Notes: a model not told the origin generated them from the sequence alone. 64,000 nt of DNA from Bacteroides sp. (GCA_021202275.1 JAJQDI010000002.1:1-64000), one strand, 5' to 3'. Counted from the stretch's first letter, positions 22,401-63,996 are shown. Made by a program: numbers and translations.

Positions 22401-22571
22401 AACGCCCGGCTGTATTTCACCGCCAACAACCTGGCTACCATCACCGGTTACTCGGGTTATGACTCCGAAGTGTCGGCTGCCAACGACAATGTGATCTGTA
22501 CACCGGGGTATGACAGTTCCACGTATCCCCGTTCCAGAAGTTACGTGGTGGGTCTGAACTTAACATTCTAA
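19485..22571 (+). CDS. SusC/RagA-family receptor (susC2), 5'-truncated (no signal peptide or promoter): apparent OFF allele
   Basis: Homology to susC1 starts at SSNGTITDMDGNYT, directly at the 42-bp repeat. The upstream in-frame TGA at 19476-19478 precludes an N-terminus. Body intact to TAA. Confidence 0.93.
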   Translation, partial: SSSNGTITDMDGNYTITVSPTDKELTFSFVGYDTQTVTIGNQTRIDVTLQETSHLLDEVVAIGYAKVKRKDLTGAISSVSGGELASVPVISAAQALQGKAAGVNIVSSSGAPGADVNITIRGGTSITQSTKPIYIVDGFEMSDALTTIDINDIESIEVLKDASSTAIYGSRGSNGIILITTKSGKQGKTTVNYNTYLSFDKLSKKLNMMANAEEFVKYQYELAELQGKTTQWSNVFDNSLGVDSPDFYTGAYGRISQRYGDDYAIDWQDEVFGGSVLTQTHNVSISTGTDKTQVLLSYNYSAQDGLLANHSVNKSTIRTKVNSELYKGIRVDFNSMFSTRSTDGGGTYSGMKNVLLQPINGGTLFTRDELLHTQTYPNFSSLDSGFDTANPLVQNEASTSNKRNRIFSVNAGLEIDLLKHFTWRTAGLYSWSHSKSTSFADENSTSYIMDPVNTGINGSIGNEESYRYQITNTLNYFQTFAQKHKVNVLLGHEVVYTEKESDSMKLRQFPYPNFGLDDISNATVYDKSSGHSRNGLVSAFACVNYTFDERYLLTATIRGDGSSKFARGNKWGIFPSVSGAWRVSEERFWKNNIGDAVNNLKLRAGYGVTGNNGIGDNLYTTTISQTDYPINNTVGNPAYVPSTTLGNKNLKWETLHATNIGVDLSFLNSRINFTVEWYNNQISDMLMKSVIPASTGYTSQYQNAGKMRNRGWEFTLNTTNIQTKNFRWTSDLNLAFNKSKVISLEQDLEYKTFTVGGNRSGTLNYYAVVNERLGDMYGYVYQGIYTTDDFIQAADGTLTLKEGVVKPYGDAVPQPGDIKFAADNEEGDQFTREMVKIGNGTPDCIGGFNNIFTYKGFDLSIFMTFSIGNDVYNATKHSMSPYALYQNVPTEFGDNYYRLIDPATGQKATTLARLKELNPDEASRTWSLNNTNSSYITYPSSYYVEDGSYLRIAQVTLGYSLPRKWLQKVMISNARLYFTANNLATITGYSGYDSEVSAANDNVICTPGYDSSTYPRSRSYVVGLNLTF
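19488..19529 (+). repeat. Inverted-repeat site C (42 bp) at the 5' edge of susC2
   Basis: Exact reverse complement partner of 17999-18040. Confidence 0.97.
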
Positions 22572-25768: not shown

Positions 25769-27067
25769 TTACTTTCTTACCACGATCTGATCGTATTGCT
25801 GTTCGGCTTTGATCTCTGTGTATTTCGGCGCGTCCATCATTTCGATCAGCGCGCGCAGTACGGGACCTTCGCCCATCGGATCGTTTTCCTGAGTGGGGCG
25901 ATTGTAGTAATATGCCAGGGAAGGCATAATTCCGGTACCTACGCAGATAGCGGTTACATCGCCATCGTCACTGATGCGGGTCATCATGCCTTTCAGTCCC
26001 TGTTCGGCTACGTAGATAAAGTCGGGATGCAACCATCCATTCTTTACACCACGGGCGATACCGAACACGAACATGGCTGTTCCGGTGATCTCCTCATAGG
26101 AGTCTACCTTGTCGAGCAGTTGATGCCACAGGCCGTTCTTTCCCTGATAACGGGCTACTCCGCTGGCCTGCATGTTGAAATTCTCTATCACGGCGTCACG
26201 CATGGGATGATCTTCCGGCATCATCGCCAGCAGATCGGCCTGTGCCATGAATACCCATCCGTTGGCACGGCTCCAGTGAGCCACACCGTGCTCTTTGTTG
26301 TCGGTATGGTAGCAATGATAGTAGATCTGCTTCTCCGGACACCAGAGATAGCGGGTATAATTGATCACCTGGTTGGCTGCGTCGGTAAAGTAGCGGTCGT
26401 CGCCCGTCATTTTTCCCATACGTGCCAGAAAGGAAATGGCCATAAAAGCATCATCCGCCCAGATCGTATTTACATGGGGCCATACCCGGGCAATGGTGCC
26501 ATCGGCCAGGCGGGGTTCGGCATATCTCAGGTGATCGGCTGTCTCGCTGATATAGTTCATAAAAGAAGGATGGGGATAGCGCATCTGCAACTCGATCAGG
26601 CTGGCCCCCATCGGTCCGTTGTCGTCCAGACGCTTGCCCCGGAAGATCATGTGCCAGCTCAGCTTGCGGATGGCATTCCACCCATCTTCCTTAAAAGCGG
26701 CATCGTATTGTTTGCGAAAGAATTCCAGGTTGCCTTCGTTGAAGACAAAATCCATATTCTTTAATACATATTTTTCGTATTTCTTATCCCCGACCTTATC
26801 ACCCAACTCCATCAGTGCCATATGGGTGACTCCATTGGTATAGTGCCAGTTGTTGTACTTGCAATTGACTTTCACATCCATGGAAAGAGGCAGGTTCTTC
26901 ACGGAAGAATAAACCTCTCCGGTCCTGGTATTTTTAAAATCATAGGTTGTACTCTCCAGAATACGGTTGGCTATCTTCTCCGCGGCTTCGGCGGCGGTTA
27001 TCTTTGTCTGTGCCGAAAGTGCACAGACACTCATAAAAAAGGCACACGTAAGCAAAATTCGTTTCAT
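25769..27067 (-). CDS. GH105 unsaturated rhamnogalacturonyl hydrolase-like, exported
   Basis: 432 aa, signal peptide; WADDAFMAISFLARMGKMTGDDRY, HWSRANGWVFMA motifs; stop TAA. Confidence 0.85.
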   Translation of the reverse strand: MKRILLTCAFFMSVCALSAQTKITAAEAAEKIANRILESTTYDFKNTRTGEVYSSVKNLPLSMDVKVNCKYNNWHYTNGVTHMALMELGDKVGDKKYEKYVLKNMDFVFNEGNLEFFRKQYDAAFKEDGWNAIRKLSWHMIFRGKRLDDNGPMGASLIELQMRYPHPSFMNYISETADHLRYAEPRLADGTIARVWPHVNTIWADDAFMAISFLARMGKMTGDDRYFTDAANQVINYTRYLWCPEKQIYYHCYHTDNKEHGVAHWSRANGWVFMAQADLLAMMPEDHPMRDAVIENFNMQASGVARYQGKNGLWHQLLDKVDSYEEITGTAMFVFGIARGVKNGWLHPDFIYVAEQGLKGMMTRISDDGDVTAICVGTGIMPSLAYYYNRPTQENDPMGEGPVLRALIEMMDAPKYTEIKAEQQYDQIVVRK

Positions 27068-36252: not shown

Positions 36253-36340
36253 ATTTACGATTTACAATGGAAGTTTGTCTATTCAAGCGATAATTGAAAG
36301 GTGTTACTTCCATCGTAAATCGTAATTCAGTAAATTGTAC
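36253..36340. repeat. Short inverted element of the TTTACGATT family
   Basis: TTTACGATTTACAATGGAAG ... ACTTCCATCGTAAATCGTAATTCAGTAAAT. Confidence 0.7.
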
Positions 36341-39152
36341 ATATCTTCACTGGCCCCAGCAACCCACTCGCTACCGGCTGCCAATGTCCGTACCCGGTAG
36401 ATTTATAGTGTATATCTACCAGATTGATCTCTTTGAATTTTCTCCAGGGTACTCCCCGGCGATCCATATCCGCGATGCGGTTGGCCGGCAGGTTGGTCAC
36501 CTCTATTTCTATGATATTCTCACCGGGACGCAGGTAACTTCCGATCCGGCAGCGGTAGGGAACTGCGAACAACACGGCTACTTCTTCTCCGTTGATACGT
36601 ACCCGCGCGCTTTCCCGCACATCCCCCAGATCCAACACCCAGTCCGTAGCCTCCGTATCATCGATCCGGAACGTTGTGGAATAGCAGGCCGTGGCCATGG
36701 TACGCGCTGCATTTTCCACGGAGAGTTCCGTCCAGGAGCCCAGGGATACGGCAGCAGGCGCACCGGTGACTTCCGGCACACTCTCTACAAACCGGAACTG
36801 CCACATTCCGTCCAGGGAGATCTCCCGGCCTCCGGCTGTGAAATAGTTCCACTCTTTTTCACCCACCTCCTTTCCGGTATAGGTGCGCAGGATGACAGAC
36901 TCGCCCGAAGCCAGTTGCAGGTAAACCTCAGCCTGCCCGTCACGCTGTCGCAGGCGGGCTTTCCCTTTTTCTCCGGTCATCGGATCATAGAGCATAGCCG
37001 AAATTGCCGGTACAGCCAGGGGTATCCATCCGTCCGTATCCTGCGGGCAAAGTGCCGAGATAAAGTAATGATGCCCTTCCGGATTGCTCCGGCGGATCAT
37101 ATGTAGTCCGTATTCGCTCTTCATCCGTTCCGGAAGTATGCCTGTCTTTGCCAGCGATATACTATCGTTGTGATATCCGTAGATCATTCCCGCAGGAGAG
37201 ACATCCCCCCACTGGAAAATCTCTTTCAGAACAGTCTCCCGCTTTTTCTTCTCTTTCATTCCGGGCACCGTATGCGGGAAAGAGTTCAGGAACACGATCG
37301 TAGCTCCCTCCTGAGCCAGCTGCACCAGCCGGGCTGCCACATCTTCCGGCATAGTCTCTGTCCGCGGTACAATCAGCCCTTTGTAAACAGTTCCCGCGGA
37401 AGTGATTAATTTCCCGTCCCGACACACCAGGTCCCGGACAAAACGATCTGAAATATAATCCATATCATACCCCGCGTTGTAGAGGGTATGCACAGTAGCA
37501 ATAAATTCCGGTGCACGCCTCGCCATTTTGTGGATATCAAACATCAGCAATGTCCCGTCCTGCTGCGCCCACATATCATACACAGGCAGATAGAGCAGAA
37601 AGTCATTGTCCGGTTCTCCCATCTGCAGGAAACTTTGGCAACGGCTTATATAGTCGAAAAACGCAGGGGCATCCCGCCAGATCGGGTTGGTCGGGCTCAT
37701 ATCCACTGTGGCGTAGAACTTCCATCCCGGCCACTCCGCTTCCCAGGGCGAATAGGTGGTTCCATGAAAATAGGCACGGTTCACTCCGGATACGAACAAC
37801 AAGTCGATCTCCGGTTTGCATTGCGAAAGGGAAGTGCGGAAATGTTCGGTCAGCCACGTAAATGTCTCTGCCGAGGTATAAGGCTTTCCGGCGATATGTG
37901 CCGCCGAAGAGGCGTATTTCAACATCGTAAGGTCGGAGTCATTGGGCCGGGTGAGCGAATCTTTGCGCAAGCCCCGGATACCGAAATCGGTGATACCGAA
38001 TCCTTCGCATTCGGGAACATCTACCGTTGCGTACAAATCGATCAGGTTACCGGGCGAGCCGTGCGCCTGATTGCGTGTCTTTACTCCGTGTCTGTGTGCC
38101 CAGTCTGTCCATTGCCGGGTGAAGTTTTCCAGCAACAACTCGGCCATCGTCTCCCGGTAATCAGCGATCACATCCCGGGTGAGCCGGTTTTTCTCCACCA
38201 TAGACAGGTTGTACTGTGACATTCCCTGAACATACTCACGGGTAGCTTTTTCATCTAAGAATTCCGGAAGATACATCTCCATCGGATAGCCACGACGACG
38301 GGCGAACTCATCGAAAAACCCTTCGGTCCAGTTGGCACCGTAGACTTCGTAGGAGTCATTAAAGAAATGATCCGGATAAGGAGTAGCAGTGCGGGAAAAC
38401 GCCTCCTCAAAACGTTGCAGGTAGTTGCTGACTGCCCTGACAGAAAGATGATCCATGACATATCCCTCTCCACCCGGAGCAGCGCGTTTGACCTTCTGCA
38501 ACGTCTTTCCACAGAAAGCGGCGATCAGCCGCCATTCTCCCTCCCCGTAAGGAGCTTTCCAGTCCAGTGTCCCGTCCGGCTGTACCCGATCGGTCAAATC
38601 CAGAGGTTGCATTCGGGTTATCTCCATAGGGTTCCCATAGGGATCGGCAGGTGGAAAAGCCATCATCCGCTCCAGACGAGCATACGGAGGCTGATCTTTA
38701 TCTGCCACCGGAATCTTTTCCACAAATGGGCTCCCACATGGTACCTGATATTCCAGGACAAGCAGCCGGGAAGCCGCATCTTCGATACTTACTTCCGGCC
38801 CCCCGAACGGCCAGCCTGTACCTGTATTCATATCGATCTGAAGCCCGAGTCGTTCTCCTTCTTCCAGGGTATGGCGTATCATCTCCATCCATTCGTCGGA
38901 AAGATGCCGTAATTCTTTATCATCCATTCCCTGAACACCGTAGATCGGGGTGATCTCCAGGGCTCCCAGACCGGCACGGGCATATTCTTCCAGATTGTAA
39001 GTCAGATTGTCCCGGTCTACCGCACTACCCATCCACCACCAACGGGCACCGGGACGGGATTCTGTTCGTATTTCCGGCCAGTCGGTTTGTTGAGCATTCA
39101 CAGACAAACTCATCGCGGTAAGGATGAAAAAAAACAGATTATAGAGTTTCAT
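36327..39152 (-). CDS. GH106-like alpha-L-rhamnosidase, exported
   Basis: 941 aa with signal peptide; RPGARWWWMGSAVDRDNLTYNLEEYARAGLGALEITPIYGV typical of GH106; stop TGA within repeat. Confidence 0.88.
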   Translation of the reverse strand: MKLYNLFFFILTAMSLSVNAQQTDWPEIRTESRPGARWWWMGSAVDRDNLTYNLEEYARAGLGALEITPIYGVQGMDDKELRHLSDEWMEMIRHTLEEGERLGLQIDMNTGTGWPFGGPEVSIEDAASRLLVLEYQVPCGSPFVEKIPVADKDQPPYARLERMMAFPPADPYGNPMEITRMQPLDLTDRVQPDGTLDWKAPYGEGEWRLIAAFCGKTLQKVKRAAPGGEGYVMDHLSVRAVSNYLQRFEEAFSRTATPYPDHFFNDSYEVYGANWTEGFFDEFARRRGYPMEMYLPEFLDEKATREYVQGMSQYNLSMVEKNRLTRDVIADYRETMAELLLENFTRQWTDWAHRHGVKTRNQAHGSPGNLIDLYATVDVPECEGFGITDFGIRGLRKDSLTRPNDSDLTMLKYASSAAHIAGKPYTSAETFTWLTEHFRTSLSQCKPEIDLLFVSGVNRAYFHGTTYSPWEAEWPGWKFYATVDMSPTNPIWRDAPAFFDYISRCQSFLQMGEPDNDFLLYLPVYDMWAQQDGTLLMFDIHKMARRAPEFIATVHTLYNAGYDMDYISDRFVRDLVCRDGKLITSAGTVYKGLIVPRTETMPEDVAARLVQLAQEGATIVFLNSFPHTVPGMKEKKKRETVLKEIFQWGDVSPAGMIYGYHNDSISLAKTGILPERMKSEYGLHMIRRSNPEGHHYFISALCPQDTDGWIPLAVPAISAMLYDPMTGEKGKARLRQRDGQAEVYLQLASGESVILRTYTGKEVGEKEWNYFTAGGREISLDGMWQFRFVESVPEVTGAPAAVSLGSWTELSVENAARTMATACYSTTFRIDDTEATDWVLDLGDVRESARVRINGEEVAVLFAVPYRCRIGSYLRPGENIIEIEVTNLPANRIADMDRRGVPWRKFKEINLVDIHYKSTGYGHWQPVASGLLGPVKICTIY

Positions 39153-39257
39153 ACAGAATTCTTTCTATGTGTTTGACAAAAATAGCGAAAGCCGGATACA
39201 AGGTGACGTTTACTTCAACTATGCGAAGACACCTCCTATATGCTACAAATATATAGA

Positions 39258-39663
39258 GATTTACGATTTAGTTCCTTCGTCATGACCCATTCTTTGATTT
39301 TTAACATCAAGGTAAGTTGATGATGTACGATTTATTCCTTTATCACGACCCTTATCTGATGATTGACACTAAAGAACGTTCGACAATGCAGGATCGGAAC
39401 CGGTAGTATCGACCTGTAGAGACGCAAGGCGTGCGTCTCCGCGACATACGTCCAATAAAAATATAAAGTGTTATCTCTTGGTATATTCCTCCACTAACTC
39501 AGATATATCCTGTAGTATTTTAACAACTCCATGCAGCATATATCTCCATTCGGCCCGCGGAGACGCACGCCGTGCGTCTCTACAAGTGGATGCTACCCTA
39601 TAATTTGTAACTTCAATCGTACATCGTAAATCGTCCATTCGTAAATCTCTTCATTCGTAAATC
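39258..39663. repeat. Composite palindromic repeat element
   Basis: GATTTACGATTTAGTTCCTTCGTCATGACCCATTCTTTGATTTTTAACATCAAGGTAAGTTGATGAT (near-identical to 45844-45910), GTAGAGACGCAAGGCGTGCGTCTC, GAGACGCACGCCGTGCGTCTCTACAAGTGGATG, terminal CGTAAATC motifs. Confidence 0.8.
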
Positions 39664-39666
39664 TCT

Positions 39667-42300
39667 TTATTTTCCCAGTTCCAGGCAGCCCATGATAAAA
39701 GGCCCTGTCGCTTTGGCATCGTTATCCCGCATCTTCTCACCGATATAGTATTCAAAGCTACCGTCGCGATAGGGATGTCCACCCAGGCCACCGACCTGGC
39801 AGCAGCGGGTCAGCGTCAGGGTACCATCCGGATTTTCAACAAGTAATTTCTCTTTCAGACCGTTGAATGCTTTTTCCGCAATCTTCCGGTATTCCGGACC
39901 GATATAGCCTTTGTTCACCGCTTTAGCGTAGGCATACATACACTGTGTGGTGACGGATGCCTCCGGGAAGTTCCCTTCCCGCTCAGGCTGATCGAGTACC
40001 TGATACCAGAGCCCGGCTTTGTCCTGATATTTCGGCAGGGCATCCGCCAGTCCCTGTATCCAAGAGATCATTTCGGCGCGGGCAGGATGCTGTTGGGGAA
40101 TGTAGTCCAACGCATCTACCAATGCCATGTACCACCAGCCGATGCTCCGGCCCCAGAAGTTGGGAGAATGTCCCGTCTGCGGATCGGCCCACCGCTGGCT
40201 CTTGCTCTCGTCCCAGGCATGGTGGTACAATCCGGTCTTTTCGTCATACGTATGTTTGTGACAGAGCCTGAACTGCTTCACCGCCTCTTCGATCCACTCC
40301 GGCTGGTCGAATTCCGCTCCGTAACGCGCCAGGAAAGGAGAAGCCATATATAAACCGTCGAGCCAGATCTGGTGCGGATAGATCAGCTTGTGCCAGTAGG
40401 CCCCTTCCAGTGTACGCGGGTGATTTTTCATCTGGCGGATCAGCGATTCCATTCCCAGCTTGTACTTCTCTTTTCCGGTGATCCGGTACAGATCAAACAA
40501 AACCTTGCCCGAGTTGATGTAATCTATATTGTACGTTTCCACATGGTGCAGGTGGATCATTCCCTCGTCGTTGATCAGAGAATCGGCCCATTGCTCCACG
40601 TAGTCAAAATAGTGCTGCTCGCCCGTAGCCTCCCACATACGCAGCATGGCACAGCATCCTACGCCCTGCGCATATCCGAAGAAAAGACGCTTGCCATGAT
40701 CCAGTTGCCAGGCTTCCGGAAAACGGCGCATTTCCGAGTCGGCAAACCAGCGGGCATACGTATCCGGCGCGAAGTCGTCCGTACGGAAGGGAACGGCAGG
40801 CAGTCCGTCACCGTTACACAGGTTGACCCGGAAGAATGTTCCGTATCCGTAGCGCACAGCTACCGGTTCTGCAACCTGCGGAGCAGAAACCTCCAGGCTA
40901 TTGTCTCCTGTGATCACAGCCGTAGCCGGATAGAAACGCGCGTCGGCACCCGAAACAAAAAATCCGTTGACAGCCTCACCGTCCGAAGTACACAAGCCTC
41001 CATCTGTATAGTCAAAAGTCACTGTTACTTCAGAACCATTTACTTTCATGCTTTTGTATAAAGGTCCGGAGTAAGTTACCTGCTTATGGTATTGTCTGGC
41101 AAGTGCCCAGTTGGCCAGCCTTTCTCCGACCGGCCGCTTGTCACGGGGATGGATATCGGTAGAATCGGCCACATCCGTGGCCACCACCATGCCTGTATGA
41201 GGGACACGCTGCCAGGTTTTCAGTTGAGTTTCCCGGATGCCTGCCGGTTGCCTGTAATGCGGAGCGATCTGTACAAAATAGAAGGGGAGTTCCGGTTGCT
41301 TCCAGGCTGCGCGCCAGCTACCGATCAGATCTGTAAACACCTCCTGATAGTCTTCGTAACGGATCGCGTTGGACTCTCCCTGATACCAGATAGTGCCACG
41401 TATGGTATAGGGAATCAGGGGAGCAATCATACCGTTCCACAACGTAGCAGGCACTTTGCATTCATCCTTCTTACGTTTCACCTGCACGGCGGCGAACTCT
41501 TCCAGTACACCGCTGTACAACGGTTTGTTCTCCATCACTGGCAAGGGCATCCACGACTCGGCATGAGTACCGCCCCAGGTAGACTGGATCAGTCCCATTG
41601 GTATGCCTGTTTCTTTGTATAATTTACGTCCGAACGTAAATCCGACAGCGGTAAAATCTTTCAGGTTTTCCGGTTTACACACGACCCACCGCCCCACACA
41701 ATCGTCCTTTTCCCCGTCCGGAGCCAGCTGGTGCTCCACATGGAACAGCCGGATCTCGGGATAATCGGCGTCTTTGAGTTCCTCTTCTTCCCCGATCATG
41801 CCGGTCTTCCACTTCATCTGCGGATCACGCATCACCGGGAACTCCATATTGGACTGTCCGCTACAGAGCCACACCTCACCGATCAGTACATGGTTCAGAG
41901 TAAGGGTGTTCTTGCCGGAGACAGTGATCTGTTGCCCGGTACAAGCCGTGGGAGTATCGAGTTCCAGGGACCATCTGCCTTCTGCGGTTGCCTGAGCAGT
42001 ATACGAACGATCGCTCCAGGAGACAGCAACAGTTACCGCTTCACCCGGAGAGGCTTTGCCCCAGACAGCCACCCGGCTGTTTTGTTGCAAGACCATATGA
42101 TCTGAAAAGAGAGAGGGAAGAGAGATCTGCGCCTGCAAGGGCAGCAGCCCCATCAGTACAAACAGAAAGATCGCTGTACGGCGAAAAAGGCTGAAAGATC
42201 TATGGAGAGACGATATAAGAGGCCATACATATCCATCCCCGTGCGTCTTATGCCTGCTTCTGTAAAACGGATCCTGTGGATTAATCAAGTGAATGTTCAT
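39667..42300 (-). CDS. Bifunctional sialate-O-acetylesterase-like (SGNH) + GH105 fusion
   Basis: N-terminal LFSDHMVLQQN...GEVWLCSGQSNMEFP, TIWYQGESNA; C-terminal GH105 (YAQGVGCCAMLRMWEATGEQHYFDYVEQWADSLI...KLIYPHQIWLDGLYMASPFLARYG); stop TAA. Confidence 0.88.
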   Translation of the reverse strand: MNIHLINPQDPFYRSRHKTHGDGYVWPLISSLHRSFSLFRRTAIFLFVLMGLLPLQAQISLPSLFSDHMVLQQNSRVAVWGKASPGEAVTVAVSWSDRSYTAQATAEGRWSLELDTPTACTGQQITVSGKNTLTLNHVLIGEVWLCSGQSNMEFPVMRDPQMKWKTGMIGEEEELKDADYPEIRLFHVEHQLAPDGEKDDCVGRWVVCKPENLKDFTAVGFTFGRKLYKETGIPMGLIQSTWGGTHAESWMPLPVMENKPLYSGVLEEFAAVQVKRKKDECKVPATLWNGMIAPLIPYTIRGTIWYQGESNAIRYEDYQEVFTDLIGSWRAAWKQPELPFYFVQIAPHYRQPAGIRETQLKTWQRVPHTGMVVATDVADSTDIHPRDKRPVGERLANWALARQYHKQVTYSGPLYKSMKVNGSEVTVTFDYTDGGLCTSDGEAVNGFFVSGADARFYPATAVITGDNSLEVSAPQVAEPVAVRYGYGTFFRVNLCNGDGLPAVPFRTDDFAPDTYARWFADSEMRRFPEAWQLDHGKRLFFGYAQGVGCCAMLRMWEATGEQHYFDYVEQWADSLINDEGMIHLHHVETYNIDYINSGKVLFDLYRITGKEKYKLGMESLIRQMKNHPRTLEGAYWHKLIYPHQIWLDGLYMASPFLARYGAEFDQPEWIEEAVKQFRLCHKHTYDEKTGLYHHAWDESKSQRWADPQTGHSPNFWGRSIGWWYMALVDALDYIPQQHPARAEMISWIQGLADALPKYQDKAGLWYQVLDQPEREGNFPEASVTTQCMYAYAKAVNKGYIGPEYRKIAEKAFNGLKEKLLVENPDGTLTLTRCCQVGGLGGHPYRDGSFEYYIGEKMRDNDAKATGPFIMGCLELGK

Positions 42301-54857: not shown

Positions 54858-55351
54858 CATTTCTGAGATGTACATGTCAGTTTTCTTACTTAGGGTTTTT
54901 CGTATTTTTGCCTTCACACCTTCACTGTTGCATATAACAAACTATTTATTAACCAATTAGATGTGAAACCCATCCTTTCTTTCAGCCTTCACCGGCCTTC
55001 ACGCCTTCCCCTGTGTTATATATACCTGAATGTGCTGGTTACCAGAAAAGAATGAGCCTGTGTATGTAACCTCAAAAGCCACTTTACATAACATACATTG
55101 CCAAAAGGATTAACCCTTTATTCCCTATACATTAATTGTGCCTACAACTGTGGGCCCAACTAATCTCAGTGAGAAAAGTACCTAATGTAACCGGGATATG
55201 TATATAAACAACACGGGTAAACTGGTTAAGGTCACCGGAACAGAAGAAGCAGGACCATGAGACAAACAGGTTTATACCCAAAAAGTAGTATACACAGAGA
55301 GCAAAAAGCCAGATCTCCGGTGCAGAAAACAGATTTGATCACTTCATAAAA

Positions 55352-55411
55352 ATTCCTGTGAAGACAGTCCCACAGAGAATATACATCCTCTCATTTTGTC
55401 TTCACAGGAAT
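55352..55411 (-). terminator. Terminator downstream of caspase gene
   Basis: ATTCCTGTGAAGACA...TGTCTTCACAGGAAT, minus-strand TTTTTA tail. Confidence 0.75.
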
Positions 55412-55462
55412 CTATACATTGTCAGACCGGAACGTCTCTGTTCCGAAATTTGACTTATCAGA

Positions 55463-58243
55463 TCAGAAACTCTCCTGAGTATCCTCTGTCGGCAATTGCT
55501 TCAGCCGGATATCTTTCCATTGATCGCCCAACTGGGCGGAAACGCTCACCTGTGGTTCCTGGAGTTTATTGATCTTCAGCGTAGCTCTCTTTACCTCGCT
55601 GGCTGTGCGGTCAAACAGTTCCTGCATGGTCAGTTCCCCCTTAGACTCCTGCAATACCTTGATGAGGAAATAGGTATAATAGCCCTGTTTTTTCTCGTGG
55701 TACACACTGGAGGTCTGGTCGCCGCTGCTGGAAGAGAAGCTGATCGTATTGCCTAACGGGAATCCCGATCTGGGTACGACGCGGATCGCTTTCTGTGCCA
55801 CAAGCGGAGCTTCGCTCTTGTGTCCTCCACTGAAACAGGCATCCAGAAATACATATGCGTTCTTCGGATTATGAGCTGCCAGTTGTTTGTACAGATCGTT
55901 CAGTGAAATACCCAGGTGCATATTTCTTCCTGTGATGTCCACAGGCAGCAGATAGGGATCTTTGGTACGTTCGTCGTTATTGCCATGACCGGAGAAGTAG
56001 AAAAACAACTCGGCATCGGGATTGGCACTGGCAATGCTGGAGAGCCAACCCAACTGTTCGTGCATCATCCCGGTAGTGGCGTTATATAAGACTTTGATCT
56101 GGTTGGCCGGAATACCGAACGTACGCACGCAATACTCCCGGAACACCTGCGCGTCGTTGACTGCGTAAGGTACATTGATCTCGGCATTGGCCCCTGTGAT
56201 GCTGTAGTCTTCGTTGCCGATGATCAGCGCATAACGGTTGGGGCAAACTTCCCCTTCCGGAATATTCTCCAGCAGCTCACTCTGGTAGGTGAGCGAGAAG
56301 GTATTGGCATTGACCGCAGGGGCATCCGCGCGGGAAGAGATATTGATGGTATTGGCCGCGGTCAGATATTGTCCGATCTTTACTTTAAAGACCTGGTTGA
56401 CATAGGACGACCGGCTGTCTTCGCTTACCGTCATATTTACCAGGATCGAGTCGCGGTCGAAACGGTTGTTTACTACAAACCCGCAATCGATGACAGATAC
56501 CTCGCCGGGAGCAATACTATCCAGGGAGATCTCCGGTGCATCGGTAGCGTACACATTCTCAGGGAAAGTGAATTTGATCTGAAGTCCCGTAGCCGGCACA
56601 CGTCCGAGGTTGTTGAGGGCAACGGTCAGCTTTCCGTTCTTTCCCCGGGTCAGGGAAGAACCATCGGTAGCAAAGAACTGAAAGTCTGCCACATCCAGAC
56701 GGGGGAGTGCGTACTCCAGTGTACCGATATTCATGGCTATCGGCTGCGCGTCGAACCCATTGGCCTCAAACGCATAGAGGTTGATCACCGCCTGTGCGGT
56801 AGGCAGATCCTGTTTGGCTAAGAAACGCATGGTAAACTCTTTAGAACCTCCCGCGGGCACAATACCGGCATCGAGTTCACGGGCACCGTCGAAATATTGT
56901 TCCAGTCCATGCTGCTCGGACAGACGTACACGTACGTTGTACGCGTCTCCCTCTCCTTCGTTGAGCAAGGTAAACCGGATGGTGAATGCCTCACCGGCAT
57001 CGATCAGACGGTTGTTGTTGTGATCCATGAAACTATCTACCCGGATCACCAGCTGCGCCGGATTCACCGGTACCGGAGCAGAGAGATCCACCGTCTCTAC
57101 GATCGTACGGTCTTTCTGCGCTACCTGGTAGGCCGCGAGCAAGGCAGGGAAATCGCTGTAGGTCTTGTTGTTTTCCAGGATCTGTTTAAGCACTTCATAC
57201 TCCGCGGTCATATCCATATACTGGTAGATACTCATCAAACCCTGCATATACTGTACCGATGCCGGATCTTTGCTGAGTATTTTCAGGAAAAGTTGCTCCG
57301 CTTCCTGCAGGTATCCGGCAGCGCGCTGGCGGACGGCCGCGTACTCCGCGTCATTGGCTATCGTAGCTCCTTCGTTGATGATCTCCGTGGCATAATTGAA
57401 ATGGGCCCGTGCCACCCCCGTCAGGATCTCCGGGCTATCGGGATGAAGCGCGTACAACCACTGGTATACTTCCAGAGCCTCTTTGTTGCGTCCTTCACGT
57501 TCCATCAGGCGGGCTTTGATGGGAAGTACCTTTTCGTTGTTGGGGTCAATCTCCAGAATACGGTTGATACATACCAGCAACTTCTGCATGTTGTTGGTAG
57601 CGATATGCACGTTGACCAGGTTGTAAAAGAAATCCAGAGATACCGGATATTTCTGCACCGCCTCTTCGAGGATCTGTTCCTGCCTCTGATGATCCTTCTG
57701 CTTCTGGTAAGACATGCTCAGGTAGACATACGCGTCTTTATCCTTACCTGCGTCGGGCAAGGTAAGATACTCCCGGAAAAACCGTTGCGCCTGCTCGTGC
57801 TTGTCCTGGTTGTAGAATACCACCGCCGTATAATACAGAATGGAAGCATACTGGCCATCACGTCCGAGGTAGCTATCCTGCAGGGTGCGTAGCTGAGGCA
57901 GTTCGATATAAGCCGCACCAAACTCAGCGGCCTTTGCCGGATTGTCTTTGTCGGTGTAGTACGTGAACCCGGTCAGCAGCAACGGGTAGATCTGCCGCAA
58001 CCTCCGTTTGGAAGCGTCCAGATACTCACCCGCGTCGGAAGCTTCGGCCACCTTGCGGTAATTGTAATAAGAATTCAACAGATACCCGTACATACGATCC
58101 GCGTCCGTATGGTTGTCACGGGCACTCTCATACATCACAAATTGTTGAGCGGCATCATTGAACAGCGCACTGGTCTGCGCCTGTAATCCAACTCCCCACA
58201 CCAGGCATATCCCCATGATCGCCAAGAATACATTTTTTCTCAT
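55463..58243 (-). CDS. Exported TPR protein with C-terminal caspase (peptidase C14) domain
   Basis: 926 aa; signal peptide; TPR repeats; ALIIGNEDY, FFYFSGHGNNDE (His), YVFLDACFSGG (Cys); stop TGA. Confidence 0.9.
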   Translation of the reverse strand: MRKNVFLAIMGICLVWGVGLQAQTSALFNDAAQQFVMYESARDNHTDADRMYGYLLNSYYNYRKVAEASDAGEYLDASKRRLRQIYPLLLTGFTYYTDKDNPAKAAEFGAAYIELPQLRTLQDSYLGRDGQYASILYYTAVVFYNQDKHEQAQRFFREYLTLPDAGKDKDAYVYLSMSYQKQKDHQRQEQILEEAVQKYPVSLDFFYNLVNVHIATNNMQKLLVCINRILEIDPNNEKVLPIKARLMEREGRNKEALEVYQWLYALHPDSPEILTGVARAHFNYATEIINEGATIANDAEYAAVRQRAAGYLQEAEQLFLKILSKDPASVQYMQGLMSIYQYMDMTAEYEVLKQILENNKTYSDFPALLAAYQVAQKDRTIVETVDLSAPVPVNPAQLVIRVDSFMDHNNNRLIDAGEAFTIRFTLLNEGEGDAYNVRVRLSEQHGLEQYFDGARELDAGIVPAGGSKEFTMRFLAKQDLPTAQAVINLYAFEANGFDAQPIAMNIGTLEYALPRLDVADFQFFATDGSSLTRGKNGKLTVALNNLGRVPATGLQIKFTFPENVYATDAPEISLDSIAPGEVSVIDCGFVVNNRFDRDSILVNMTVSEDSRSSYVNQVFKVKIGQYLTAANTINISSRADAPAVNANTFSLTYQSELLENIPEGEVCPNRYALIIGNEDYSITGANAEINVPYAVNDAQVFREYCVRTFGIPANQIKVLYNATTGMMHEQLGWLSSIASANPDAELFFYFSGHGNNDERTKDPYLLPVDITGRNMHLGISLNDLYKQLAAHNPKNAYVFLDACFSGGHKSEAPLVAQKAIRVVPRSGFPLGNTISFSSSSGDQTSSVYHEKKQGYYTYFLIKVLQESKGELTMQELFDRTASEVKRATLKINKLQEPQVSVSAQLGDQWKDIRLKQLPTEDTQESF

Positions 58244-58299
58244 AATTAACTCCTGTATATTCTCTTACACAAAATTTCATCTTCCAGTGCTGTAGTCTA

Positions 58300-58399
58300 A
58301 GACACAACGATACATTTCGTATGTTTGCATATAAAATGTTATGCATTGGGATTTACAAACATATTCTTCCTGTAATTGTAATCGTAAATCCGTAAATCA
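58300..58399. repeat. Repeat copy at the stop codon of the WD40 gene
   Basis: TTCGTATGTTTGCATATAAAATGTTATGCATTGGGATTTACAAACATATTCTTCCTGTAATTGTAATCGTAAATCCGTAAATCAG; matches 8102-8180 (TCGTATGTTTTTATATAAAATGTTACGCATAGAAATAACATATTCTTTCTGTAATTTCAATCGTACATCGTAA). Confidence 0.75.
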
Positions 58400-60481
58400 G
58401 AACGCATCCAGAATGGTGAACTCCACATTGATCTTCCGGTACTCCCCTCCTCTTTCCGTGGCTACCTCCACATAGAAATCATATTCGTTGCGGGTATTCT
58501 GTAAGGTGGTGATGTGATTTTCGATCATATGTTGTACGCCTGCCGCGCGCAGGTAGGCGAGCTGCTGGTTCTGGGTAATACCGCTTGCTTTGGTGACGGT
58601 GAGGTTGTCGAGTACACCGTCGCTGTAATAGGGTTCGTTGACAAAGTCACCGTACCGGCCGTCATACGCGATACGTCCACGGATAGGGCTGGCGTCTGCC
58701 GAACCGGTGATCTTTACTTTCACCCGTTTGCCTTCGCTCAGGTATTTGGCAAAGTCGCCTTCCTGGAACGACTGCCGGATGATGCGCATCATCGACATGG
58801 CCGCGTTGGATTTCTCTATATCGTATCCACCGGACGGGAAATCTTCGTTGGCCGAGAACGCGCGGTTCACCACTTCGTATTGATAACCGATCTTATAATT
58901 AAGGATCCGGTTCCCTTCCGCATCTACACCGGCTACCACTTCCGTATTCACCGTGATCTGGGTATTGTCCGTGATCAGTTTGTCCTGCTTGTTCTCTTCC
59001 AGTACCTCCTGCTTGAGGTCTTCGAGTTTCATTCCTTCCTGGCTCACCTGCTGCATCACTTCCAGCGGAATAAAATGATCATCTACCTCCATGGCATTGA
59101 GTTTCAGACGGCCGATGTTGTCATAGATATATACCTTACCAGACACCTCATTGAGCACCTCCACATAGGCGATCTCAAATTCGTCTTTATCATTCAGTAC
59201 ATACTGCGCATTGGAGAAAGAGAAGTTGGAAGGATCGTTGAAGTCGCCGACTTCATTGCTTCCAACGGGAATCTCAATATCGGGCATATGTTCAAAACCG
59301 ATCGCAAGCAGTCCAGTAGCCACGCTGTAGTCACGGGTAAACGGATTGTCTATGGCGATACGGTCTCCGGCCAGACGGGTAGCGGCCTCAATGGAAAACA
59401 GTTCCTGCTGGCGGGCACGGGTTTCGTCGTTGACACGCAACTGATATTCTTCCAGAGATTCGCCCTGCATCATCTTTACCCATTCATTCATCTGCTGGTC
59501 TACCTCCTGGTTGAGCAACTTACCGTAGAACGGATTCAGGCCGTTGGCATTCCAGTAGACCAGCTCGTTGTACCGGTTGGTGAGCAGATGCTGTTCGTCG
59601 CTGGCGGTAGCCTTCATAAAGGCGCATGTCACCGCGCCGGCATTGCCCGGAAGGGTTTGCAGGACCTGCTGGTTGCGCAGGTTGAGTATCCGGATAGAAT
59701 CTCCTCCCTCAACAAAAGCCAGGTATTTATCGTCCATATTGAAAGCAGAAAGACTCAGGGAAGACTCCGCTTCATAGGTATATACCGGTTCCCAGCTTAC
59801 CGTGTTCCACAGCGTGATCCGGTTGGTATCATCTACCGAAGCCATCATACTGCCGTCGTTGGAAAAAGCCACATACGAGACCTCTCCGTCTACAGAAAGC
59901 TGTTTGCGCATGCTGCGCGCGTCAAAGTTCCAGATGTCGATCTCTTTTCCACGGACCGCCGCCACGAAGTAATTATCCGGGCTCATGCGGACAAATCGTG
60001 CGGGCGACTCTCCCTGAAGTATACACTTCAAGGAATAGTCGCGGGGGTCATATACCAGGATCTCGGACAGGGAATTGGCCACGACCAGGTTACGGGCATC
60101 TGCTCCGTAACACAAGGCACCCACCTCCCATTTTCCTTTTACACCTTTGCGTTTATTCTTTATCTTCTGAAGCACTTTGTTGTAGTCGTTGCAGGAATAG
60201 ATCGCCACGCGTCCCTTCTTATCCAATACCGCCAGGCTGGCACCGGAAGGAATGATGGCGAATTCCCTGATTTTCTCTACTTCAAACAACTGGTTGTCGT
60301 TGTAGGTATGGATGCCTTTTCCGTTGTAGTACATCACCCGGTACGACGCGTTGCTCACAGAGGTGATCTTTCTTTTCGCTTTGTATGTTTTCAACTCTTC
60401 TACCTGCGTGAAAAGCGAGGCAGATACAGCTGCCATTCCCAGGCACAGGAATATTCTTTGGATTGTGATTCTAGCCAACAT
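58397..60481 (-). CDS. Exported WD40 beta-propeller protein with C-terminal OmpA-like domain
   Basis: 694 aa; repeated VSYVAFSNDGSMMASVDDTNRITLWN-type blades; C-terminal QQLAYLRAAGVQHMIENH...DFYVEVATERGGEYRKINVEFTI; stop TGA. Confidence 0.8.
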   Translation of the reverse strand: MLARITIQRIFLCLGMAAVSASLFTQVEELKTYKAKRKITSVSNASYRVMYYNGKGIHTYNDNQLFEVEKIREFAIIPSGASLAVLDKKGRVAIYSCNDYNKVLQKIKNKRKGVKGKWEVGALCYGADARNLVVANSLSEILVYDPRDYSLKCILQGESPARFVRMSPDNYFVAAVRGKEIDIWNFDARSMRKQLSVDGEVSYVAFSNDGSMMASVDDTNRITLWNTVSWEPVYTYEAESSLSLSAFNMDDKYLAFVEGGDSIRILNLRNQQVLQTLPGNAGAVTCAFMKATASDEQHLLTNRYNELVYWNANGLNPFYGKLLNQEVDQQMNEWVKMMQGESLEEYQLRVNDETRARQQELFSIEAATRLAGDRIAIDNPFTRDYSVATGLLAIGFEHMPDIEIPVGSNEVGDFNDPSNFSFSNAQYVLNDKDEFEIAYVEVLNEVSGKVYIYDNIGRLKLNAMEVDDHFIPLEVMQQVSQEGMKLEDLKQEVLEENKQDKLITDNTQITVNTEVVAGVDAEGNRILNYKIGYQYEVVNRAFSANEDFPSGGYDIEKSNAAMSMMRIIRQSFQEGDFAKYLSEGKRVKVKITGSADASPIRGRIAYDGRYGDFVNEPYYSDGVLDNLTVTKASGITQNQQLAYLRAAGVQHMIENHITTLQNTRNEYDFYVEVATERGGEYRKINVEFTILDAF

Positions 60482-60544
60482 CTCTTTATTCTGTTTTATT
60501 TGTTATCGTCTTTGGTTCTTTCTATATATGCCTTTGGTTCCTGC

Positions 60545-63166
60545 TCAATTCAGGATGTCTTTTCCCAGATTGAAGGTTTTAGTGGTATGATTCTTGTCAT
60601 AATCAAACAGCAGGTCTCCGTTCTGCTTGTAAAGGATCACGTGGTTGAGCCGGAACCAGATGACAGCGGCTCCTACCTTGACACCGTCTATGATATCCAT
60701 CCGGATGTCTCCGGATGGTAAGGTACGCAGACTTACTTTACTGCCACTCTGCACCCTGACCTTATCAAAGCTGACCGACTTGCCGTGGGAAGTCTGGATG
60801 GTCATTACCCCGCTTTCATTCACCACGATGGAAATAGCGGCTATGTTCTTATAAATATTCGGGCATCTCTGTCTGAAGGAAGGATTGTACCTATCCAGTG
60901 CTGCAATCACATCCGCACCGTTGATCCGGCGTCCGGGCTTGCTCATCATTTCTATGAACGCAAACACTCCTGCGATGGAGGGATCCGTACGGTTGGAGAT
61001 CCATTGATTGTTGAGCTGATGCAGCAGATCGGCCACAGATAGTTCTTCCGCGGCATGGGTCACCTGGGCATGAGCTACAGCCAGGTGATCACTGCCAGGC
61101 AGAATGCCGCTCAGCAACAGATTTCCGTTGTCCAGAGAAGTGAGTCTGACAGGAGGCATCTCTGCTGTCTGGGGAAACTCCAGTTTATCTATGATCCTGC
61201 CGTCGCGATCCAATGTATAGGTGTAGGCATTGCAGGCTTTTTCCTCCGGTTTCATTCCATTCAGCCAGTCTACCGTTCCCCGGGAAGAGAGAGCTGCCAG
61301 AAACACCTGTGACGACTCTTTTTCGGGCAACCGTACGTCAGCCAGCTGCAGATCCGACAGAGCCGTTCCGGTCAGATACAACCGATCTTCCCCTCCGAAA
61401 AGGGCCAGTTGCAGGATATCCTGTTGCGAACGAAGAGGGATAAACCAGTCGAACGAGCCATTCGGATCGACACGCCCGATAAATGGCGACGCGCCCGCAA
61501 CCGGGTGATGGGTCTGTCCCGCGCAGGTCACCGATCGGTTGAAATACCCACACACGTAGTAACTACCGTCGGGAGCCGCGATCAGATTGTCCTTCGCCGC
61601 GCCGGGATACATACCTTTGGTTTGCAATACTTCCCGGAGAGACCATTTGCGTTCGAGCTGCAGGTCGGCGTTTTTCACCGGGATCAGTTCTGCCTTCGAG
61701 GTAGCATAGCGCGCCATGGCCATGCCAACGAGTGAGTTGACATAGGTCGGATCGCAGGATACATACTGCCTTCCCTGGTAGATATATGTATAGGCTTCTT
61801 TGTTAAAGCCTTCTATACACACTCCCGTAGAGGCGTGTCCGGGATACAACAACCCGATGGTAGGATAGCCCAGCAGAGAATGTACCATGTAGCTGAGCAA
61901 TACGGCACGATCTTCACAGTCGGTATACGGATAGGCAAAACACTCTTCTACGAAGAAATAACGTTCGCGTCCGAATTGCTCTTCGTCTGTCATATAAGGG
62001 AATCCCGCATAGATGAAATCGAGCAGTAACTGTACCTTTTCTTCTCCTGTAGAACAGCTTTCCAGTAAAGGGATAAAACTGGTATACAGATCTGTTTTCA
62101 GCTCGGAAGAGACCGAGGCATCGAAATAGACCTGCATATCCGCAGACGGATAGTCGTTGTAAAAATCGATCACCCCCTGGTTGTACCGCAAAGAGACATC
62201 ATGGTCTTTCCCGTTGAAGGAAAAACTTACCCGACGCTCTCCCACCGGAGCGTCTGCGAAATGAAGCGCGGTGGAAAGGTTCATATCCAGTTTTCTGTTG
62301 CCTTCGGAAAACTCACCGTCGTAGGTACGGATGCCTCCGGGTATGGGTTGCAAGGCATAATAACGCACTCCGTTCTTTTCTATATAAGGATGTTCGTAGA
62401 TCTTTTGTACGAACGACAACAGGATCACCGGCTCGTTGCTGCTGGTAAAAGCCAGACGCGCGCTGTAGCCTGCTTTGTTCATCAGGAACCAGGTCAATAG
62501 ACGCGCCGAAGTGAGATCCTGTCCATACAGCTGCAAAGCCATCGACTGCACAAGCCGGTAGAATCCCCAGTCATTCAGTCCATACCGCTCTTTGAGGGTA
62601 AACAACTGATCGAGCAAGCTGTCGTAAGAGGTCTCCGCTTTCGCACGCCAGTAACCGGCCACTCCTCTCTCCTGCATTTCTTCCTGATAAGGAAACGCCA
62701 GTTTCCTGTCTACGGAAATGTTCAATGTACTGCCGTAAAAGGAGAACACAACTGGTTGAGTGTCTGCCGATGCTTCCGGAGAGCGGGGGATACGGGGATG
62801 GCTGGAGGGTGCGACCGGATCCGGAACTACCGGGGTCACAGCCAGCGGAACGGTAGAAGAGGGCCGCTGTTCGTCGGGGGTGGCCTGAGGTGGGGTCACC
62901 GGTTTGGGAACACTTTCTCTCAACTCCCCGGAGAACACGCTGAATTCTTTCCAGTGCTGTTCCAGCATCTCACTGAAAGCCTTGTCCTGCTCTTCCGCAA
63001 AACGATGGAAATCGGCCCGGATCTCTTCGGTGAACAGGTGCATTTCTTCCTGAAAGCCGGAAAGCATCTGATCCATCTCTTTCTGCAACTCCTCCGGAGT
63101 CTGCGCAGAAAGAAATCCACCTACCAGGCAAAAACATATAAAGATGTGCTGTCGCATACGAATCAT
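60545..63166 (-). CDS. Exported transglutaminase-like protein
   Basis: 873 aa; PYTDCEDRAVLLSYMVHSLLG (Cys), LLYPGHASTGV (His), YVSCDPTYVNSLVG (Asp); coiled N-terminus and signal peptide; stop TGA. Confidence 0.82.
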   Translation of the reverse strand: MIRMRQHIFICFCLVGGFLSAQTPEELQKEMDQMLSGFQEEMHLFTEEIRADFHRFAEEQDKAFSEMLEQHWKEFSVFSGELRESVPKPVTPPQATPDEQRPSSTVPLAVTPVVPDPVAPSSHPRIPRSPEASADTQPVVFSFYGSTLNISVDRKLAFPYQEEMQERGVAGYWRAKAETSYDSLLDQLFTLKERYGLNDWGFYRLVQSMALQLYGQDLTSARLLTWFLMNKAGYSARLAFTSSNEPVILLSFVQKIYEHPYIEKNGVRYYALQPIPGGIRTYDGEFSEGNRKLDMNLSTALHFADAPVGERRVSFSFNGKDHDVSLRYNQGVIDFYNDYPSADMQVYFDASVSSELKTDLYTSFIPLLESCSTGEEKVQLLLDFIYAGFPYMTDEEQFGRERYFFVEECFAYPYTDCEDRAVLLSYMVHSLLGYPTIGLLYPGHASTGVCIEGFNKEAYTYIYQGRQYVSCDPTYVNSLVGMAMARYATSKAELIPVKNADLQLERKWSLREVLQTKGMYPGAAKDNLIAAPDGSYYVCGYFNRSVTCAGQTHHPVAGASPFIGRVDPNGSFDWFIPLRSQQDILQLALFGGEDRLYLTGTALSDLQLADVRLPEKESSQVFLAALSSRGTVDWLNGMKPEEKACNAYTYTLDRDGRIIDKLEFPQTAEMPPVRLTSLDNGNLLLSGILPGSDHLAVAHAQVTHAAEELSVADLLHQLNNQWISNRTDPSIAGVFAFIEMMSKPGRRINGADVIAALDRYNPSFRQRCPNIYKNIAAISIVVNESGVMTIQTSHGKSVSFDKVRVQSGSKVSLRTLPSGDIRMDIIDGVKVGAAVIWFRLNHVILYKQNGDLLFDYDKNHTTKTFNLGKDILN

Positions 63167-63237
63167 TTTTGAGTTCGGAGCATGGAACCGGAATACCGGT
63201 TGTCTGCCTCTGCTACTAAGATGTAATATCCTGCTTT

Positions 63238-63996
63238 TTACTCTGTGATCTGAAGCATCTGCAATACGGTAGCACGTTCATGGGCGGGAATGCTGTATAC
63301 CCACTTCAACACGCTTTCGAAAGTGACCTTCTGATCGGTATAAGGAATATTCTGCCGGGTGGCGATCATCATAAGATTGATCCGTTCGAAAGGTTTATTA
63401 GTCACCTTGGATAGTTCGTATTTCAGGCCATTGCCGGGAAAGGTATACTCCTGATCGGCCAGGAACAGACGGGAAGCCTCGAGTTCATTCGGGAATACCA
63501 CGGAACCTCCGTCTTTATCGAACCAAAAGATGGTGAGATAGGCATCCCGGTTCCGGGACCGTATGTTGAAACTCAGCCCATCGCCGTTCTTATATGTATT
63601 TCCCACACCGGTCAGTTCCAGGACAAACTCCCGGTCGGTCTGCTCGTTTACCCTGACCACCGCGCCGATGGTTACCTCTTTGGAAAGGGTCTCGGTACGC
63701 GGGTCCCAGATATTGCGGACTTTCCTGTCGGTCACATTCATCATCCCGCCGATAGCAATGGCGTTGACCTGGGAATAGACCTCGTAGAAATTGCTGTTGT
63801 CATTCTCCGATACCTGCCCGAAGGCGGAGAAGACCTCCTCAAAAACACCGGCCTTGCGCAAAGCCTCTTTACGGGCTTCCATCAACGCTTTTTCCTCGGC
63901 CTGACGCGGAGTGATATCGTCACTCACTACCCAGACTCCGGTACATCCCTGAACTTTCACCTCTTTTTGTGCGGATAAAGAGACGAAAGGCAACAC
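63238..63996 (-). CDS. DUF4384-like exported protein, N-terminus truncated by window or near edge
   Basis: LPFVSLSAQKEVKVQGCTGVWVVSDDITPRQAEEKALMEARKEALRKAGV (LPP20-like) and SRNRDAYLTIFWFDKDGGSVVFPNE (DUF4384-like). Confidence 0.7.
   Translation of the reverse strand: MLPFVSLSAQKEVKVQGCTGVWVVSDDITPRQAEEKALMEARKEALRKAGVFEEVFSAFGQVSENDNSNFYEVYSQVNAIAIGGMMNVTDRKVRNIWDPRTETLSKEVTIGAVVRVNEQTDREFVLELTGVGNTYKNGDGLSFNIRSRNRDAYLTIFWFDKDGGSVVFPNELEASRLFLADQEYTFPGNGLKYELSKVTNKPFERINLMMIATRQNIPYTDQKVTFESVLKWVYSIPAHERATVLQMLQITE

Follow-up and report, generated by a model that had tools for sequence, protein, structure and literature searches.

A conserved, apparently exported caspase module of Bacteroidales with DUF4384, transglutaminase-like and propeller/OmpA-like partners

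Gene content and layout of the locus

The end of a 64,000-nucleotide stretch of Bacteroides sp. DNA (GCA_021202275.1 JAJQDI010000002.1, bases 1-64000 of contig C21 of genome G000; the whole stretch is referred to as the window) carries the genes of a caspase module, designated g0 to g4, all on the minus strand (Table 1). The original prediction, made from the sequence of the window, had described g1 to g4 as a cassette of four co-directional genes separated by 71, 63 and 153 bp and ending at one strong terminator. In the maps of a mechanical open reading frame (ORF) caller, the four genes, their common direction and exactly these gaps were recovered. What had been missed is a fifth gene, g0, past the window edge; the module is a five-gene unit, g0 included. 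Position 63996 is likewise the window edge and not the start of g1, the first 24 codons of which lie outside; the full g1 ORF was read in stretches L042 and L162. In the present assembly, g0 carries one in-frame TAG, whereas L078, a near relative, and further relatives have the gene intact, and the stop may mark a pseudogene or an assembly error.

The hairpin 3′ of g4 had a folding energy of −32.6 kcal/mol (z = −5.96), which none of 200 shuffled sequences equalled, in keeping with the strong terminator that had been proposed. It has a long loop with an inner stem, and a standard terminator scan reports just part of it. Signal peptides had been expected on at least three of the four proteins; all four, and g0 as well, begin with a signal-peptide-like sequence that ends in ..AQ or ..TQ, and in a crude scan at least ∼94% of each protein's homologues showed a hydrophobic stretch near the N-terminus. 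All five proteins are thus apparently exported to the cell envelope, as judged from their N-termini.

Table 1. Positions of the module genes and of the downstream hairpin (window coordinates unless stated otherwise; export is predicted)
Feature	Position	Strand	Description
g0	contig 64096-64782 (L162:1097-1783)	minus	beyond the window, 27 bp upstream of g1
g1	63238..63996 (start at contig 64068)	minus	putatively exported DUF4384 protein, 276 aa
g2	60545..63166	minus	putatively exported transglutaminase-like cysteine protease; N-terminal helical region, triad, C-terminal propeller-like region
g3	58397..60481	minus	putatively exported WD40 propeller with OmpA-like C-terminal domain
g4	55463..58243	minus	putatively exported TPR – Ig-like (CARDB/NEW3-like, weak) – C14 caspase
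Hairpin	55346..55417	minus	terminator-like, T-rich tail; downstream of g4

Domains and conserved residues of the five proteins

The product of g4 had been recognized as a TPR protein with a caspase fold and the motifs FSGHGN and DACFSGG. Pfam assigned it to Peptidase_C14 (PF00656) with 89.7 bits against a cut-off of 21.4 (E=3e-25), beside TPRs and weak Ig-like matches, and weak matches to the metacaspases MCA1 and MCA2 were found in PDB. FSGHGN contains His753 and DACFSGG contains Cys803, with Asp801 two residues before the cysteine. All three residues were kept in 63 of 63 homologues, and in a wider set of caspase domains, 39 of 42 carried DACF[ST]G, with neither His nor Cys kept in one of the set (L200). 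An Asp preceding the catalytic Cys goes along with a preference for Arg or Lys in orthocaspases and metacaspases, and because g4 shares this Asp, the DACFSG motif suggests, by analogy, that g4 would cleave after Arg or Lys. Orthocaspases cut after positively charged residues, according to one study (PMC6426788).

The g3 protein, predicted to be WD40/OmpA-like, showed WD40-type matches in Pfam. Its AlphaFold model (mean pLDDT 72, with most of the propeller between 70 and 90; the models used here were built on shallow alignments of 8 and 15 rows) matched the RACK1 and WDR5 propellers with E ∼1e-17. The C-terminus gave no match to PF00691 and was not among the 13 hits of the own-genome search at E<=10; searches of PDB and NCBIfam returned none either. 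When compared with the OmpA domains of the same genome by profile-profile alignment, hhalign gave Prob 77 (E=2e-5), whereas four control profiles reached 0-4%. The modelled strand-helix order is consistent with an OmpA-like domain, and Asp596 and Arg645, which align to the peptidoglycan ligand residues of OmpA, were present in 65 of 65 homologues. This supports the view that the C-terminal domain is probably OmpA-like and is missed by Pfam.

For g2, a transglutaminase-like protease with a Cys-His-Asp triad had been proposed. No transglutaminase match was obtained in Pfam, NCBIfam or PDB searches, and g2 was absent from the listing of an own-genome PF01841 search. Against an alignment of 28 Pfam-type transglutaminases from related genomes, its core scored Prob 93 (E=3.4e-7) in hhalign, with controls at 0.1-0.3%; a single-sequence hhalign gave no such support, which came only with the 28-transglutaminase alignment. 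The triad was located at Cys417-His444-Asp472, and among homologues Cys was found in 26/26, His in 25/25 and Asp in 23/25 (Glu in the other two). Both the Cys and the Asp align with those of the Pfam-type family. A transglutaminase-superfamily core below Pfam detection is therefore supported, at the level of profiles and conserved residues, and the Cys and His of both putative proteases are practically invariant, as the original prediction would have it. The C-terminal half of g2, in the long form of this lineage, matched the CylK propeller (E=1e-15); a fold search with the full model returned just this propeller and low scores and was therefore uninformative on the protease part. The DCEDR motif of g2 presumably resembles that of LapG-type proteases.

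That g1 is DUF4384-like was borne out by a Pfam match (PF14326) of 38.2 bits against a cut-off of 27 (E=1.6e-9); orthologues from the same genus are 43-50% identical. In a divergent branch, the DUF4384 proteins scored 20.5 and 26.5 bits, below the cut-off, and were aligned with g1 by hhalign at Prob 100. The g0 protein had no significant Pfam match. In Dysgonomonadaceae, its place is taken by an LPP20-type lipoprotein, itself with a weak LPP20 match (PF02169) below the cut-off. A relationship between g0 and LPP20 was considered and could not be shown, given the lack of a Pfam match and an hhalign Prob of 8 against the replacing lipoprotein.

Co-inheritance and arrangement of the module genes in Bacteroidales

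Homologous loci were collected by a scan with a g3 alignment (one genome per species); sampling throughout made use of scans based on patterns and of loose profiles, and some neighbours are lost to contig ends. The scan returned 65 module loci, exclusively from Bacteroidales, plus two WD40 hits that are unrelated. Wherever the contig continues, as it does at 63 loci, g4 directly follows g3, down to a g3 identity of 33%. Three arrangements were encountered. The order g0-g1-g2-g3-g4 is found in the lineage of the window, in metagenome-assembled genomes of Tannerellaceae, in some Mediterranea, in Phocaeicola and, with the lipoprotein in place of g0, in Dysgonomonadaceae. Muribaculaceae and others have g3-g4 followed by g1, g0 and g2, often with a CarboxypepD_reg-like gene in between. 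Most Bacteroides carry two unlinked loci, g3-g4 beside cca and g0-g1-g2 beside pta-ackA (gene names by eye). On a tree of g3 and g4, the arrangement changes at least eight times, with membership retained.

Linkage is not a prerequisite for co-occurrence. In the genus sample, g1 was found in 6 of 36 relatives, all six of which had g3 and g4 at a locus unlinked from g0-g1-g2; one further genome with g3 (G015) showed the second arrangement with a divergent DUF4384 gene. Of 394 genomes sampled across the order, 8 had full-length g3, and g0 accompanied it in 8/8, compared with 47/394 overall. The chance of the 7/7 co-occurrence that remains when the genome of the window is excluded is ∼2e-7 by our own arithmetic, which ignores kinship, so that the true figure is less extreme. 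By these counts, gene content, gene order and co-inheritance are established: g0 to g4 are co-conserved across families of Bacteroidales, which is what the prediction of a functional cassette had called for.

Loci with g0 extend beyond those with g3. From the 394-genome sample, 51 stretches bearing g0 were examined, some of them from genomes with g3, so that the two sets partly overlap. A DUF4384 gene of this family was present in 28, a caspase in 27, both in 24 and the transglutaminase core in 18, mostly within ∼7 kb. As a control, 1.18 Mb around the g3 loci contained at most one caspase per locus, namely g4 itself. These counts and this control identify g0, DUF4384 and caspase, often joined by the transglutaminase, as the order-wide recurring core, and g3 as an addition in one branch. 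Short sets of g0, DUF4384 and a caspase of ∼460 aa, with neither transglutaminase nor propeller, occur as second copies at L152:4576-7555, in a genome of the genus Bacteroides, and at L058:4134-7568, in another family. An outer-membrane β-barrel gene sits between the genes of the L058 set, and a short ORF follows the caspase of the L152 set.

Additional genes are specific to certain clades. Genes for fimbrillin-like (Mfa_like_1) lipoproteins, preceded by a CarboxypepD_reg-like gene, lie inside the operon at L113, L114, L116, L118 and L128, either between g4 and g1 or downstream of g4. At L119-L121, L127, L129, L134, L135 and L138, a CHASE2 gene and a gene for a conserved small exported protein (no Pfam match) are located directly upstream of g3; CHASE2 was called by Pfam in one Muribaculaceae-type member and by similarity to that member in the rest. 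As each is confined to a single clade, both links are weak hints. The neighbours of another locus, L103, had been considered a fimbriae cluster, a notion that was rejected, as Pfam identified an imelysin, di-haem peroxidase and porin set.

The surroundings of the locus itself were also inspected. Upstream of g0, at contig ∼66318-73220 (L042:11319-18221), lie two large genes that by eye appear to encode TamL, an outer-membrane lipoprotein, and a TamB/AsmA-like protein, so that, if these calls are right, the module of this lineage adjoins envelope-biogenesis genes. Elsewhere, the window contains polysaccharide-degradation genes at 36327-42300 and 25769-27067 (GH106 rhamnosidase, GH88 with an acetylesterase domain and a second GH88) and a TonB-dependent receptor gene at 19512-22571.

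Possible function and relation to known systems

The reading that we favor, with about as much confidence as doubt, is that of an exported, peptidoglycan-tethered caspase module whose targets are envelope or surface proteins, cut on the C-terminal side of Arg or Lys. We infer for it a mechanism, with its protease activity, P1 specificity, complex formation, compartment, substrate class and trigger, that would run as follows. After Sec export, g3 would bind peptidoglycan via its OmpA-like domain, to judge from the conserved Asp/Arg pair, and its propeller would serve as a scaffold. The TPRs of g4 would bind the scaffold or the clients, and its His-Cys dyad would cut proteins of the envelope or surface C-terminal to Arg or Lys, as the DACFSG motif suggests. 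The g2 protein could be a second processing enzyme or an activator of the first protease. Because g0 and g1 accompany the caspase even where g3 is absent, they are assigned to it as putative adaptors or regulators. Likely clients would be exported or surface (lipo)proteins, for which the fimbrillin-like genes in the operon of one clade may provide an example. A more far-reaching version, possible but distinctly more doubtful, sees here an order-wide envelope protease machine, so far unrecognized, in which the exported caspase and the transglutaminase-fold protease would form a cascade of two enzymes on a scaffold tied to peptidoglycan and shape the (lipo)proteome at the surface of common gut bacteria; the caspase system would then act outside the cytoplasm and have nothing to do with cell death.

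Several points weigh against a caspase module of this kind. No caspase was found in the fetched stretch of 24 of the 51 g0 loci, in some of them through contig ends. At L200:5740-7581, the caspase beside g0 and DUF4384 lacks both the catalytic His and the catalytic Cys (a pseudo-caspase), and activity may therefore not be essential everywhere. The fimbrillin link depends on one clade, and since type V pilins in Bacteroides are reportedly cut by a surface clostripain (PMC12632263), pilin maturation is no vacant role for the caspase of the module. Finally, the CHASE2 genes next to the module in Muribaculaceae would also fit a role in signaling. The propeller/OmpA and TPR parts could then sense damage to the wall or outer membrane, and the caspase would cut a regulator or membrane sensor, with gene regulation as the output. 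Besides the CHASE2 sensor genes and the small exported protein directly upstream of g3, the combination of caspase, TPR and WD40 parts, which are typical of regulatory architectures (PMC3501461), speaks for such envelope-stress signaling. As the CHASE2 link is found in one clade only and no sigma/anti-sigma factor, histidine kinase or response regulator was recognized among the recurring module families, we consider it unlikely, though worth entertaining.

A role in the maturation or release of adhesins or fimbriae, with the caspase and the transglutaminase-like protease processing lipoprotein adhesins of the surface much as gingipain or LapG would, could account for the in-operon fimbrillin-like genes, and the specificity suggested by Asp801 is that needed for the processing of Mfa1 by Arg-gingipain (PMC5954841). 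The presumed likeness of the g2 DCEDR motif to that of LapG-type proteases would also speak for it. It was downgraded to an improbable explanation because clostripain is already reported to cut type V pilins (PMC12632263) and because one clade alone has the fimbrillin genes, which are missing from the operon at the window locus and at most others. Regulated cell death or anti-phage defense, in which the caspase would kill the infected cell, was also considered. Bacterial caspases act as effectors in several defense systems, and the general caspase model of PADLOC did match g4. This match, however, covers the caspase domain of g4 alone; no other PADLOC model and no multi-gene system was found, the proteins have signal-peptide-like N-termini, and in Bacteroides g3-g4 occupy a fixed chromosomal site beside cca (by eye) rather than a variable island. 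With a single match and fixed sites, this reading was rejected as very improbable. That the genes are mere neighbors without a common function is scarcely credible: the variable gene order and the separation of g0-g1-g2 from g3-g4 in many Bacteroides could be taken to favor it, but co-occurrence holds when the genes are unlinked, membership survives the changes in order, and the catalytic residues are kept.

Taken as a whole, the original prediction of an envelope-located proteolytic or signaling module holds with regard to co-conservation, catalytic residues and the exported appearance of the proteins. It was incomplete in its gene content, and the core found across the order lacks the propeller/OmpA gene outside one branch.

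The closest known relatives are the orthocaspases, or bacterial metacaspases, with which the module shares the C14 His-Cys dyad, the Asp two residues before the Cys, and TPR and WD40 partners. In a survey from 2012, 14 of 217 metacaspase operons contained OmpA domains and 23 contained domains for proteolysis (PMC3501461), and cyanobacterial orthocaspases can carry DUF4384 as an accessory domain (PMC7475262). Because these ties to OmpA and DUF4384 have already been published, the module is placed with the orthocaspase operons and not regarded as categorically new. It differs from them in that DUF4384, transglutaminase-like and WD40-OmpA parts are separate proteins of a recurring, apparently exported module across Bacteroidales. 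Arg-gingipain (C25) and the clostripain-like fragipain (C11) are comparable as exported cysteine proteases whose fold is caspase-like and which process lipoproteins or pilins at the surface (PMC5954841, PMC12632263), but they belong to other peptidase families and are not encoded in the module. The Cys-His-Asp triad links g2 to the transglutaminase-like proteases (PF01841), from which it is set apart by falling below Pfam detection, by its DCEDR/DPT motif set and by its coupling to a caspase. In its architecture, g3 resembles PorE and other OmpA-family scaffolds of the type IX secretion system (T9SS), which presumably likewise combine, within a single exported protein, a propeller and an OmpA-like domain for peptidoglycan binding; no T9SS partner genes were recognized in the module.

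No account of the module was found in the literature searched on Bacteroides caspases and C14 peptidases and on DUF4384, a search outside of which most subscription journals and preprints fall. The module is thus apparently an undescribed, as had been proposed, but real and conserved variant of bacterial orthocaspase operons. To our knowledge, most bacterial caspases have no known physiological role, and work on them has mainly focused on death or defense in the cytoplasm. With tractable gut Bacteroidales such as B. fragilis, B. cellulosilyticus and Phocaeicola plebeius and with its partners named, the module offers a testable system for caspases outside the cytoplasm, and it is a candidate for a second route, beside clostripain, of surface-protein processing.

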